Assembly: GCF_034522235.1 (NCBI RefSeq)
Contig: NZ_JAXHLN010000003.1
Span: 248,001 to 312,000, forward strand
Length of the DNA: 64,000 bases
Direction: 5' to 3'
DNA from: Thiohalophilus sp.
Lineage (GTDB): Bacteria > Pseudomonadota > Gammaproteobacteria > UBA6429 > Thiohalophilaceae
The first letter of the stretch is position 1; the number at the start of each line of letters is the position of its first letter. Made by a program: the position numbers and the translations under genes. The notes under the pieces are model-generated. The model was not told where the DNA came from. It made no database searches and worked only from the letters and a program-made list of their open reading frames with translations. Below are positions 3,362 to 7,550 of the stretch, one piece after another.

Positions 3362-3399
3362 ACAAAAAAAGGGGATGCAAGCATCCCCTCCAATTTGTT
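3362..3399 (-). terminator. Rho-independent terminator of the multicopper oxidase genes
   Basis: A perfect 8-bp stem GGGGATGC/GCATCCCC with a 2-nt loop. On the minus strand it is followed by a run of seven T. It ends the transcript coming from 5451-3422. A weaker T-rich tail on the plus side could also stop plus-strand transcription. Confidence 0.85.
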
Positions 3400-3421: not shown

Positions 3422-4438
3422 TTATACTACTGTCACTTTGGTTTTCACTGTCCCCAGCACGTCGCCGCTGATCCAGTGAATGACATCCGCCTCGATAATG
3501 TATTCGCCGGTTTCGGTCGGCTCGAAGATGATGTCGTAGCGTTCCCCCGAATGGGCGCGCAGTTCGGTCACCTGCACCGGGTTGGGCAGGGGACGCCCGT
3601 CGGAGATGTACACAGTGCCGGTCAACCCGCCAAAGCGAATCTGTTGCGGGTGGTAGCCGGCACAGACATAGCGGCCCAGCAGCTTCTGCCCCACCTCTAC
3701 CGTGGCGGAGATGGGGGGCGCATCCAGCGCCGAGGTGCCGGTGCCGTCCACCCCGGTGATGACAAAGTAGTCGGGGTTGAGCACGTTGAGGCCCACGTCC
3801 TCGCCACAGGTGCCGGCGTCCCAGTCCAGGGTATGCCAGCGCGAGTCGATCTCGTCCACCACCCAGAACGCCTCCACGTCATAGGTGGGACCGCCCGACA
3901 GCAGGGTGCCCGGCCCTTCCGACGGATCGACGATGAGCGCGCCGTACATCCCCATCTCCGCGTGTAACACCGTGTTGGTGTGACAGTGATAGAAATAGGT
4001 ACCGGGATGCATCGGCCGCCACTGGTAGGTATAGGTGTTGTCCTGCACGTCCCAGGTGATATGGCCCACACCGTCGCTCTCGGGCCCCGGCTCGATGCCG
4101 TGATGGTGAATGGTATGCGCCCACATGTTACTCACCGACAGGTTGGTGTGGACAATTTGCCCGGCGGTGACCCGCATCGCCGGCGAGGGGAAGGTACCGC
4201 CACCGCCCATGCCGCCACCACCGCCGTCGGCGAAGCCCCACATGGTGATGTCAGTGCCGTCGTCCATGGTCAGGCTGATGTCCATGTCGATGCTGCGATC
4301 AAAGGTGACGTCCGCCGTGACCAGGTTGGGGTTGTCCTCCTGGTTCTCGTCATAGACGTAGCAGGCGCCGCCCATGCCGCCACCTCCGCCGCCGCCCATG
4401 CCCATCATCAGACGGTGTTTTTCGTTGATATTAAACAT
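3422..4438 (-). CDS. Two-domain multicopper-oxidase-like protein B (carries the type 1 Cu site, no signal peptide)
   Basis: A 338-residue protein with cupredoxin domains. It starts at ATG 4438 after a GGGGG ribosome site and has no signal peptide. It opens with a Met/Gly-rich stretch (MMGMGGGGGGGMGG), and a second Gly-rich loop lies near residues 72-82. Domain 1 has HTIHHHG (residues ~108-114), like the first copper motif of multicopper oxidases, and YHCHTNTVLHAEMGMYG, which supplies the Cys, His and Met of a type 1 copper site plus two His. Domain 2 (after residue ~190) has a cupredoxin pattern but no clear copper ligands. It lies 11 bp downstream of protein A, so they are certainly co-transcribed. 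The substrate is unknown. Confidence 0.75.
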   Translation of the reverse strand: MFNINEKHRLMMGMGGGGGGGMGGACYVYDENQEDNPNLVTADVTFDRSIDMDISLTMDDGTDITMWGFADGGGGGMGGGGTFPSPAMRVTAGQIVHTNLSVSNMWAHTIHHHGIEPGPESDGVGHITWDVQDNTYTYQWRPMHPGTYFYHCHTNTVLHAEMGMYGALIVDPSEGPGTLLSGGPTYDVEAFWVVDEIDSRWHTLDWDAGTCGEDVGLNVLNPDYFVITGVDGTGTSALDAPPISATVEVGQKLLGRYVCAGYHPQQIRFGGLTGTVYISDGRPLPNPVQVTELRAHSGERYDIIFEPTETGEYIIEADVIHWISGDVLGTVKTKVTVV

Positions 4439-4449
4439 GCTTTACCCCC

Positions 4450-5451
4450 TTATTCGAAAAAGATGTCAGTGATGGCGCCGAACATGTAGTACCCGCCGGC
4501 GGCAGTCTGGGACATTTCCGAGTGCAGGTGCATCGGATACTCGCCGGTGGAGACCTGTGGCCAGGCATCCGGCGGGGTCTCGAAGGGATAGATCATGTCC
4601 AGTGCTCCCATGTCGCCGTCGAGGTAGAGGCAATCCTTCTTCCAGATATCCGGGCGAATGATACCGTTTTCCGTCAACCACTCCATGTGGTTTCCGTGCG
4701 GATGCACGCTCTGGGCGGCCAGGCCGGCGTTGAATATCCGCACCAGCGCCCGATCACCCATGTGGCCGTGCAGGGCCGAGCGGGGATCGTGCATGCTGTC
4801 GAGACTTGGATCGCCGCTGCCCGGTGCGCCAGGCGGCCGCCCGCCCAGCCCGTTGAGGGTGAAATAGCGCGGGATATATTCGGTGCTCGGCGTGTTGCCC
4901 TGACTCAGGGCGTCGTGCCACACCGGATCGATATCGTGGAAGATCCAGAAGTACTGCTGCACGAAGGTGGGGCTGCCAGGATAGAGCTCGTCGCTGCTGC
5001 CCGAGGGCATCACCGCCAGACCGCCATGCAGGCCGAGCAGGCGGTTATAGGGGGCGTTGAGTTTGTCGTAATACATGAAGGAGCCGAAACTGGTTGCTTC
5101 AAATTCCACGGTCTTGATTTCGCCCGCAGCGATGGTCCCGCTGTCCACCAGGCCGTCGATGACGAAGCTGGCGCTGGTGTTGAGGGTGTTGATCAGGGTA
5201 ATCGAGAGGGTATCGCCCTCCTGCACAATCATCGATTCGCCCGGCACGTTCAGACTGTTGCTGTCGCTGCTGAAGCCGCGGAAATAGACATCGGTGCCGT
5301 CGATTTGAGTGATATAACCTTCGGTGATGTAAAAGGTTTTTTCAATGGTGGCGGCGTGCGCCCGCGGGGTCCAGCTCAGCAGCCCCACACCGCCCAGCAA
5401 CGACCCGGCCACGCCGGCCGAGGTGAGCTTGAGAAAGTCACGGCGTTTCAT
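4450..5451 (-). CDS. Two-domain multicopper-oxidase-like protein A (Tat-exported, no type 1 Cys)
   Basis: A 333-residue protein with a twin-arginine leader (MKRRDFLKLTSAG, hydrophobic core, cleavage near AHA-A at 33), so it is folded before export to the periplasm. Domain 1 lacks the usual HxHG and HSH motifs; GSFMYYDK stands where the second would be. Domain 2 has SVHPHGNHMEW (~residue 245) and YPMHLHSEMSQTAAGGYYMFG near the C-terminus, where Leu replaces the Cys expected between the two His. It could contribute trinuclear-site His ligands but not a type 1 copper. AGGAGA precedes the ATG. It is first in a two-gene operon. Confidence 0.75.
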   Translation of the reverse strand: MKRRDFLKLTSAGVAGSLLGGVGLLSWTPRAHAATIEKTFYITEGYITQIDGTDVYFRGFSSDSNSLNVPGESMIVQEGDTLSITLINTLNTSASFVIDGLVDSGTIAAGEIKTVEFEATSFGSFMYYDKLNAPYNRLLGLHGGLAVMPSGSSDELYPGSPTFVQQYFWIFHDIDPVWHDALSQGNTPSTEYIPRYFTLNGLGGRPPGAPGSGDPSLDSMHDPRSALHGHMGDRALVRIFNAGLAAQSVHPHGNHMEWLTENGIIRPDIWKKDCLYLDGDMGALDMIYPFETPPDAWPQVSTGEYPMHLHSEMSQTAAGGYYMFGAITDIFFE

Positions 5452-5602: not shown

Positions 5603-5618
5603 TGTAACGCAGGTTACA
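5603..5618. promoter_or_regulatory. Palindrome TGTAAC-N4-GTTACA upstream of the multicopper oxidase genes
   Basis: TGTAACGCAGGTTACA is a perfect 6-bp inverted repeat with a 4-bp spacer, the geometry of Fnr-type sites (TTGAT-N4-ATCAA). It lies in the 226-bp gap between the oxidase operon and the Crp/Fnr-family gene, about 150 bp upstream of the protein A start codon. A TATCAC sequence downstream could be a -10. That it is the site of the neighbouring regulator is inference. Confidence 0.6.
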
Positions 5619-5677: not shown

Positions 5678-6403
5678 TTAACGGCTGAACCACTCGAGGC
5701 TGGATTTGTTGTTGATGGTGATGTGTCCCCGCGCCAGGCTGATGCACTGTTGTTGTTCGAACTGTTTCAGCAGGCGGCTGATCACCTCGCGGGTGGTCCC
5801 GAGTTCCTGGGCCAGCGACTGATGGGTCACCTTGATGGTCTTGCTACCGGCCCGCTCGAACAGTTGTCCGAGCAGACAGGCCAGGCGGACATCCAGTCGT
5901 TGAAAGGCCATGTCGTAAAAGCTGTTCGTCAGTTCGCTGACGCTGGCGGTCAGACTCTTGAGTACCAGGTTACGGAAATTGTCTGAGATTTCCATGGCGT
6001 GATGGAAATCGTTCTGTTTGAGGATCAGGGCCCTGACCCGGGTTTCCGTGCGGGCGCTGGCATTGAACGGTTCGTTACGCAGCAGACTGTTGAGGCTCAT
6101 CAGGCAAATATCGCCTGGATGGATGCGATAAAGGGTCACTTCGCGGCCATCTTCGGCCATCTGGTAAATTCGGATCGAGCCCTCCAGCAGCAGGATAAAG
6201 TTGTTGCAGGTCTCGTGAGCCTGTACCAGCAGGCTGCCCGGCGGGATGAGATTGATGGGCGCCTGCGCCAGCAGTTCGAAGCACTCGGGCTTTTGCGGAT
6301 TGGCCAGCTCGGGATAGATCCGGCTGATAAGACGCAGGTTGGCCCGTGCCTGTTCATCGGCCTCGGTCGGCGGGTCGGAGAATGTTTGTTCTGATGCGCC
6401 CAT
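5678..6403 (-). CDS. Crp/Fnr-family transcriptional regulator
   Basis: A 241-residue regulator from the ATG at 6403 (MGASEQTFSDPP); the frame can be extended 15 codons to a TTG. An N-terminal cyclic-nucleotide-binding-like beta-roll (residues ~45-130: GSLLVQAHETCNNFILLLEG) is followed by a dimerisation helix and a Crp-type winged helix (VTHQSLAQELGTTREVISR). The recognition helix keeps the E-x-x-S-R spacing of FNR. There is no N-terminal cysteine cluster of the FNR [4Fe-4S] type, so the signal is something other than the FNR-type oxygen switch. It lies upstream of, and on the same strand as, the multicopper oxidase pair, with a palindromic site in between. Confidence 0.85.
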   Translation of the reverse strand: MGASEQTFSDPPTEADEQARANLRLISRIYPELANPQKPECFELLAQAPINLIPPGSLLVQAHETCNNFILLLEGSIRIYQMAEDGREVTLYRIHPGDICLMSLNSLLRNEPFNASARTETRVRALILKQNDFHHAMEISDNFRNLVLKSLTASVSELTNSFYDMAFQRLDVRLACLLGQLFERAGSKTIKVTHQSLAQELGTTREVISRLLKQFEQQQCISLARGHITINNKSSLEWFSR

Positions 6404-6491
6404 GATTATGCTTACTTTACCCGGAATGGCTTTAGTCGCTGGCGACAACTGGACAACAGAACGGCGGGTAGAGGGGTCCGGCGACGGATTA

Positions 6492-6542: not shown

Positions 6543-7550
6543 TCAGGGTTCGAGCGGCGGTTGCTCCAGTCGTTCGATCTGCTCGCGCAGGGTATTGAGC
6601 TGTTCTTCCCAGTAGCGGGGGGTGTTGAACCAGGGAAAGTGCATGGGAAAGGCGGGGTCGTGCCAGCGCCGGGCCAGCCAGCCGCTGTAGTGAATCAGTC
6701 GCAGCCCGCGTAACGCTTCGATCAGGCGCAATTCCAGGGCGTTGAAGTCGTAAAACTGGCTGTAGCCTTCCAGCAGCAGGCCCAGCTGGCGGGTCATATC
6801 GGCCCGATCGCCGCTGAGCAGCATCCACAGATCCTGGATTGCCGGCCCGATCATGCAGTCGTCGAGATCGACAAAATGGGGCCCCTGCCCGGTCCAGAGG
6901 ATATTGCCGGGATGGCAGTCACCGTGCAGGCGAATCGGATCCACCCATCCGGCAACCTCCCGCCACACGCTTTCGATCTCCCCGAGCAGCTGCTCGGCGG
7001 CCTGGCGATAATTATGTTCCAGCTCAGGGGGAATGAAGCCGTGCTCCATCAGATAGTGATAGGGACCGGTGCCGAGCAGCTCGGTGTTCAGCCGGGGCCG
7101 CTGGCGGAACAGGCGCTGGCTGCCGCAGGCATGGATGCGGCCCAGCATGCGGCCCAGCCAGCGCAGGTGTTCGGGATCTTCCAGCTCGGGCGGGCGGCCG
7201 CCGCGCCGGGGATAGAGGGCCAGCCGGTAGTCGGCATAATGCAGCAGGGTCCCGCCCTCGGCCAGCGGCAGCGGGGCCACCACCGGGATTTCCAGCTCCG
7301 CCAGTTCCTGGGCAAAGGCGTGCTCTTCAAGGATGGCCGCATCGCTCCAGCGGCCGGGGCGATAGATCTTGGTGACCAGGAAGCTGCCGTCATCCAGGCC
7401 GACCTGGTAGACACGGTTTTCATAACTGTTGAGCGCCAGCAGGGCGCCGCTGGCTTGAAATCCGCAGGCCTCGACAGCATCCAGTATGAGGCTCGGCGTC
7501 AGGTTGGCGTACGGCAGGGCGGTGTCAGGCAATTCTGTCTCCAACCCCAC
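6543..7550 (-). CDS. srkA: Stress response serine/threonine kinase SrkA (YihE/RdoA)
   Basis: A 335-residue aminoglycoside-phosphotransferase-fold protein kinase that in E. coli protects against stress-induced death. Visible motifs: NSYENRVYQVGLDDG (glycine-loop equivalent, ~41-55), VTKIYRPGRW with the ATP-binding lysine, catalytic loop RLHGDCHPGNILW (~209-221), and metal-binding FVDLDDCMIGPAIQDLW. The start is a GTG at 7550, since no suitable ATG exists nearby; this leaves 83 bp to the divergent prlC gene. Length and ending match the family. Confidence 0.92.
   Translation of the reverse strand: MGLETELPDTALPYANLTPSLILDAVEACGFQASGALLALNSYENRVYQVGLDDGSFLVTKIYRPGRWSDAAILEEHAFAQELAELEIPVVAPLPLAEGGTLLHYADYRLALYPRRGGRPPELEDPEHLRWLGRMLGRIHACGSQRLFRQRPRLNTELLGTGPYHYLMEHGFIPPELEHNYRQAAEQLLGEIESVWREVAGWVDPIRLHGDCHPGNILWTGQGPHFVDLDDCMIGPAIQDLWMLLSGDRADMTRQLGLLLEGYSQFYDFNALELRLIEALRGLRLIHYSGWLARRWHDPAFPMHFPWFNTPRYWEEQLNTLREQIERLEQPPLEP

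Follow-up and report, generated by a model that had tools for sequence, protein, structure and literature searches.

Two adjacent genes in a 64,000-nucleotide stretch of the Thiohalophilus genome (the window, in whose coordinates all positions are given) encode, with a probability that we put at about 80%, the two subunits A and B of one periplasmic multicopper oxidase (MCO) whose active site is split between the two chains, whose subunits are exported together, and whose likeliest job is Cu(I) oxidation. We infer complex formation from joint structural models, and likewise infer co-export, reduction of O2, and the substrate.

Copper ligands divided between two genes

Both genes lie on the minus strand. 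The gene for A (4450..5451, 333 aa) specifies a two-domain cupredoxin subunit that starts MKRRDFLKLTSAGVAGSLLGGVGLLSWTPRAHA and has a Tat leader (MKRRDFLK...PRAHA; 5353..5451, minus) with an RR-x-[FLVIMY] motif and weak TAT_signal and TIGR01409 matches; the gene for B (3422..4438, 338 aa) specifies a leaderless two-domain MCO subunit that starts MFNINEKHRLMMGMGGGGGGGMGGACYVY. The 11 bp spacer between them (4439..4449, minus; TAA GGGGGTAAAGC ATG) includes a GGGGG run resembling a ribosome site, as well as a TAA in frame with B (4442-4444, minus) located 2 codons before the B ATG, so that B can have no upstream leader here. An earlier, sequence-only reading of this DNA had described two adjacent open reading frames with split copper motifs and a Tat leader on A only, and had fixed the start of B 11 bp past A; both descriptions were confirmed, the second by the gap itself and by the in-frame TAA close upstream. 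A hairpin resembling an intrinsic terminator directly 3′ of B (3368..3391, minus) is consistent with a transcript of two genes, A and B.

Pfam finds Cu-oxidase domains in both proteins, and profile alignment places each of them over the two cupredoxin domains of 3g5w. We take 3g5w (from Nitrosomonas europaea) and 2zwn (metagenomic) to be two-domain MCOs of type C, whose type 1 copper is bound by domain 1; such enzymes build their trinuclear site where domain 2 of one chain meets domain 1 of its neighbour. In profile alignments with these two structures, domain 1 of B corresponds to their domain 1 ligand for ligand: HTIHHHG (residues 108-114; HTIHHH at 4100..4117, minus) provides H108 for the type 1 site and H111 and H113 for the trinuclear site, and the HCH...H...M motif YHCHTNTVLHAEMGM (residues 150-164; 3947..3988, minus) provides H151 and H153 for the trinuclear site and C152, H159, and M164 for the type 1 site; the HxH pairs of domain 2 of B have been lost. 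In A every copper ligand of domain 1 has been lost, and domain 2 matches domain 2 of 3g5w and 2zwn, with HTHGH replaced by HPHGNH (residues 250-255; 4687..4704, minus; H250, H252, and H255 invariant) as the first His set, and HDH replaced by HLH (residues 308-310; 4522..4530, minus; H308 and H310 invariant, Leu replacing the type 1 Cys) as the second. Taken together, A and B supply eight His for the trinuclear site plus a single type 1 site, and the copper ligands of both are invariant in 23-sequence orthologue alignments. Judged from these alignments, A and B are each a degenerate copy of a two-domain MCO, and their losses are reciprocal. The sequence-only reading had named a full copper set in each protein as evidence that would count against it; by profile alignment neither protein has complete ligands, the per-chain type C set (type 1 in domain 1 plus both trinuclear half-sites) being absent from A and from B.

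At the position of the lost type 1 Cys, A has Leu in 61 of 78 distinct pairs, Phe in 5, and Cys in 7, the remaining 4 Thr and 1 without a residue being unreliable calls where the pattern is ambiguous. The A proteins of six loci (L023, L108, L109, L122, L123, and L124) have HCH together with an upstream His, which may amount to part of a second type 1 site.

No named MCO family in NCBIfam scored above its cut-off for A or B, and only the generic TAT_signal domain was reached, for A. Two identities were considered and are not supported: i) the CueO / CopA(PcoA) family of copper-resistance MCOs, because the profile scores of A and B fall far under the cut-offs (for B, 70.5 bits against 478.95 for TIGR01480 copper_res_A, with the match in domain 1, and 39 against 525 for PRK10965); and ii) copper nitrite reductase, because the NirK profile TIGR02376 gives 24 and 38.5 bits for the two proteins against a cut-off of 296.3, and because A and B have, in place of the type 2 site of that family, eight trinuclear-site His that are invariant across the two.

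Distribution and proposed co-export of the pair

Among 40 genomes of the window's order, A is found in 29/40 and B in 27/40, side by side (E<=1e-40). Four A-positive genomes in that order have no B match at E<=1e-40; G018 and G033 have a divergent Sec-type pair whose B falls short of the threshold, and in G010 and G016, where the coordinates of A are near a contig end, B appears to have been cut off by that end. The pair is absent from one genome of the same genus, and in a sample of 398 genomes of the phylum the 1e-40 threshold was passed by the window's own genome alone, from which we conclude that the pair is accessory. From 193 confirmed relatives 79 loci were kept, mainly in Gammaproteobacteria (Thiogranum, Sedimenticola, Chromatiales, Thioalkalivibrio), with others in Thiobacillus, Gallionellales, Nitrosomonas, and Sulfurimonas, and on single MAG contigs of Chloroflexia and Actinomycetota; the hosts are mostly sulfur-oxidising bacteria. 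A contig labelled Anaerolineales (L088) carries a pair almost identical to that of Chromatiales L071, and is probably a misbinned MAG contig. Five distant pairs (L152, L153, L155, L156, and L158) are in reverse order, with the type 1 gene first, a gene with HPFHxHG second, and Sec-like leaders; two genomes related to these contain giant open reading frames of 2277-2790 aa with MCO matches.

The sequence-only reading had proposed a search for the gene pair in other genomes, and 78 distinct pairs with a Tat-type leader on A and none on B were recovered. Since the motifs, the gene order and spacing, the Tat leader of A, and the leaderless B all recur in these pairs, the split of the motifs is not a matter of chance. 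Leaders were called from hydrophobicity and the RR motif, with three loci (L105, L143, and L154) assigned by eye and the B start of L130 ambiguous; RR-x-[FLVIMY] is present in A in 78/78 of the class. In a sister clade of 8 pairs, both A and B have Sec or lipoprotein leaders, although their copper ligands align with those of the Tat-type pairs and form the same split set. Neither a Sec-type A with a leaderless B nor a Tat-type A with a Sec-type B occurs among the 78 + 8 pairs. This is the pattern predicted if B hitch-hikes on A, because Tat moves a folded pair whereas Sec moves each chain unfolded, and the prediction is supported at the level of sequence; the switch of export route and the gain or loss of a leader on B nonetheless amount to about one joint change on the tree, so that the correlation between leader and export route has little phylogenetic independence, and independent contrasts, with only one independent switch, had no power to test the link.

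A leader hidden upstream of B was rejected, given the in-frame stop in this genome and the lack of a hydrophobic segment in the longest frames of B where these were computed. Tat-type orthologues likewise have no conserved upstream leader for B, which the sequence-only reading had listed as a potential refutation; the exception is one Tat-type pair (L129), whose B also carries a Tat-lipoprotein-like leader, NSRRLLLASALRKLSLGLTSGLALSACGG. Two Cys residues of B located in the B-protein alignment, Cys26 (4361..4363, minus) and Cys211 (3806..3808, minus), are present together in 73 of 87 B proteins, both absent in 14, and never found singly; such co-conservation suggests an oxidising compartment, as for a disulfide made outside the cytoplasm. 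The leader census, the Sec-type sister pairs, and the Cys pair thus all favour the earlier prediction that B hitch-hikes on A. The tatC gene of the genome (35901-36551, minus; TIGR00945 match; G000:C3:283901-284551) lies about 30 kb from the pair. The further suggestion that Gly/Met-rich loops of B bind extra copper is not supported, as the loops vary extremely between orthologues, several of which have almost none: the N-terminal segment before the Cys ranges from 6 to 61 residues with 0-6 extra Met, and in L048 and L073 B begins only 6-7 residues ahead of the Cys26 equivalent.

The predicted complex and its relation to known enzymes

Structure prediction of the complex, also proposed with the sequence-only reading, was carried out with AlphaFold2 on the joined pair of L031 (~80% identical to the window pair; an alignment of 27 paired rows), and returned four adjacent cupredoxin domains with a pLDDT of 85.6 and a pTM of 0.87, in a joined chain whose A stop is read as Gly where the frames agree, a modelling device only, and whose joining through the stop could favour A-B contact. 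Foldseek placed six-domain rings first among matches to this model (ceruloplasmin, TMq 0.62-0.63; MnxG, 0.60), compared with a TMq of 0.37 for a single 3g5w chain; a joined Sec-type pair gave a pTM of 0.82 and a ceruloplasmin score of 0.59, with some alignment rows in common with the Tat-type model. In the model, A and B together fit onto adjacent domain pairs of the six-domain ring. The only tandem locus (L063) has a spacing between its pairs that is out of frame for a joined three-chain reading. The complementary heteromer of the sequence-only reading is accordingly favoured by the 3g5w alignment, by conservation in 78 pairs, and by the joint model, and on this basis A and B very probably pair inside the cell and leave it together.

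MCOs are normally complete within one chain type. The A-B pair resembles the type C enzymes 3g5w and 2zwn in having two cupredoxin domains per chain, the same ligand motifs, and an expected inter-chain trinuclear site; but those enzymes are homotrimers with both half-sites in every chain, whereas each half-site of A-B is kept by only one of its two chains, so that the A-B enzyme must be heteromeric. The likeness to six-domain MCOs (MnxG, algal Fox1, and ceruloplasmin) extends beyond superposition on neighbouring domain pairs of their ring, for the trinuclear site of bacterial six-domain MCOs and algal Fox1 has been reported between domains 2 and 3 (PMC3600357), which is the position of A domain 2 and B domain 1; six-domain MCOs are, however, single six-domain polypeptides with the type 1 site in the second domain position, rather than two open reading frames and four domains, without a conserved frame between them, and a type 1 site in the third position (B domain 1). 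As a tentative proposal, which we regard as possible but would not bet on, A and B could form a closed six-domain ring of three chains (A2B or AB2) with one trinuclear site, in effect a two-gene ceruloplasmin-like enzyme assembled before export and served by one leader.

Like A-B, the Tat hitch-hiker complexes HybOC and PaoABC (both PMC4273604) and SoxYZ have a Tat leader on one subunit and a partner without one, but these are hydrogenase, molybdenum, or sulfur-carrier proteins, and there is no MCO among the published hitch-hiker examples covered in our literature search. The cuprous oxidases CueO and CopA(PcoA) are Tat-exported MCOs tied to copper homeostasis, as is proposed for A-B, but are single three-domain chains with a complete site. 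MCOs reported with a second protein include the iodide oxidase IoxA/IoxC, in which IoxA alone has all four copper regions (PMC9415286), and the fungal heterodimeric laccases; unlike A-B, neither has a split half-site. No split or heteromeric bacterial MCO was found in the open-licence literature searched. Hitch-hiker export and two-domain MCOs are already known, and it is an MCO site divided over two exported chains that was not found in that literature.

Proposed function, alternatives, and implications

We propose that A and B descend from a two-domain MCO with its trinuclear site between neighbouring chains, and that after duplication A would have retained only the domain 2 half (H250, H252, H308, and H310), and B the type 1 copper (H108, C152, H159, and M164) and only the domain 1 half (H111, H113, H151, and H153) of the trinuclear site. 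The two proteins would fold and pair in the cytoplasm; once folded, the pair would cross the Tat translocase on the leader of A, B travelling as a hitch-hiker; copper would be loaded in the periplasm after export; electrons would enter at the type 1 copper of B, and O2 reduction would take place where A meets B. Copper tolerance via Cu(I) oxidation would be the likeliest role of such an enzyme.

Gene neighbourhoods favour copper handling. Of the 79 loci, 20 have CusA/CusB clusters adjoining the pair, which at some of them follow directly 3′ of B, and among 94 neighbours scanned Crp-type regulators and CusB/HMBD recur, with SCO1/SenC and PCuAC found twice each; in the window genome the CusA-type genes are elsewhere, and the pair has no CusA/CusB neighbour. 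Our best guess at the function is copper handling, in the simplest case oxidation of Cu(I). The sequence-only reading had left the substrate unspecified; its range is narrowed toward copper handling by the CusA/CusB, SCO1, and PCuAC neighbours. Upstream of A is a Crp/Fnr-family regulator gene (5678..6448, minus), whose cluster also neighbours the pair at 11 other loci, and between the regulator gene and A lies a perfect palindrome, TGTAACGCAGGTTACA (TGTAAC-GCAG-GTTACA; 5603..5618), a candidate Crp/Fnr-type site; TGTAAC-N4-GTTACA occurs once in the 64 kb (0.02 expected), and 11 of 77 loci have palindrome sites with at least 10/12 matches upstream of A, compared with 1.4% of shuffles. Adjoining the regulator is a PRK11768-type serine/threonine kinase gene (6546-7550, minus; NF008738, 458.7 bits), with relatives near the pair in 11 loci.

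The most serious alternative concerns the substrate alone: the heteromer could be real and exported but act on something other than Cu(I), such as Fe(II), Mn(II), a phenol, or a nitrogen oxide. We consider this quite plausible, if somewhat short of even odds, as CusA/CusB is found at just 20 loci and not beside the pair in this genome, domain 1 of A is nearest by profile to nitrosocyanin and copper nitrite reductases, and many hosts are, judging by name, sulfur, iron, or ammonia oxidisers; weighing the other way are the repeated CusA/CusB, SCO1/SenC, and PCuAC neighbours and the eight-His set, which suits an O2-reducing MCO rather than a nitrite reductase. It is also conceivable, though improbable, that the enzyme consists of B only, possibly a homotrimer, and that A acts as its copper chaperone and escorts it during export, as MelC1 does for the tyrosinase MelC2, handing over copper and then departing. 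This would account for a leader on A, type 1 copper on B, and the missing type 1 site of A, and has a copper precedent in MelC1/MelC2; but domain 2 of B has no trinuclear ligand whatever, so that a B homomer would be unable to build the site, and A retains, invariant and in the MCO positions, exactly the domain 2 set that B lacks.

Two other explanations would dispense with a co-exported heteromer of separate chains. If the leaderless B stayed in the cytoplasm, and A were a separate periplasmic protein adjacent to it through duplication only, it would be hard to understand the strict co-occurrence and order of A and B, their complementary ligand loss, the co-conserved Cys pair of B, the Sec leaders on sister-clade B proteins with the same site, or the high pTM of the joint model; we regard this as very unlikely. 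Nor do we give appreciable weight to fusion of both proteins into a single polypeptide through stop-codon read-through or a frameshift at the end of A. In most loci B does begin no more than about 15 bp past the A stop, and 30 of 78 pairs have both genes in one frame; but the other 48 are divided among both remaining frames, the spacing varies from -4 to 87 bp (median 14 bp), the window pair is out of frame, and we reject such a fusion because the frame is not conserved.

We wish to emphasize what two subunits of one MCO with a split site would mean. An O2-reducing site between two different proteins would provide a direct test of MCO evolution from two-domain trimers to six-domain rings; maturation of a copper enzyme would here depend on pairing prior to Tat export; and sister pairs that share the split site but differ in export route, Tat or Sec, offer a ready comparison for hitch-hiker export. 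Should the three-chain ring prove true, there would be a class of obligately heteromeric MCOs in Gamma- and Betaproteobacteria, Sulfurimonas, Chloroflexia, and Actinomycetota, and the sister pairs would have switched to Sec export of each half. For the hosts themselves, A-B may be an overlooked copper-tolerance enzyme of sulfur-oxidising bacteria.
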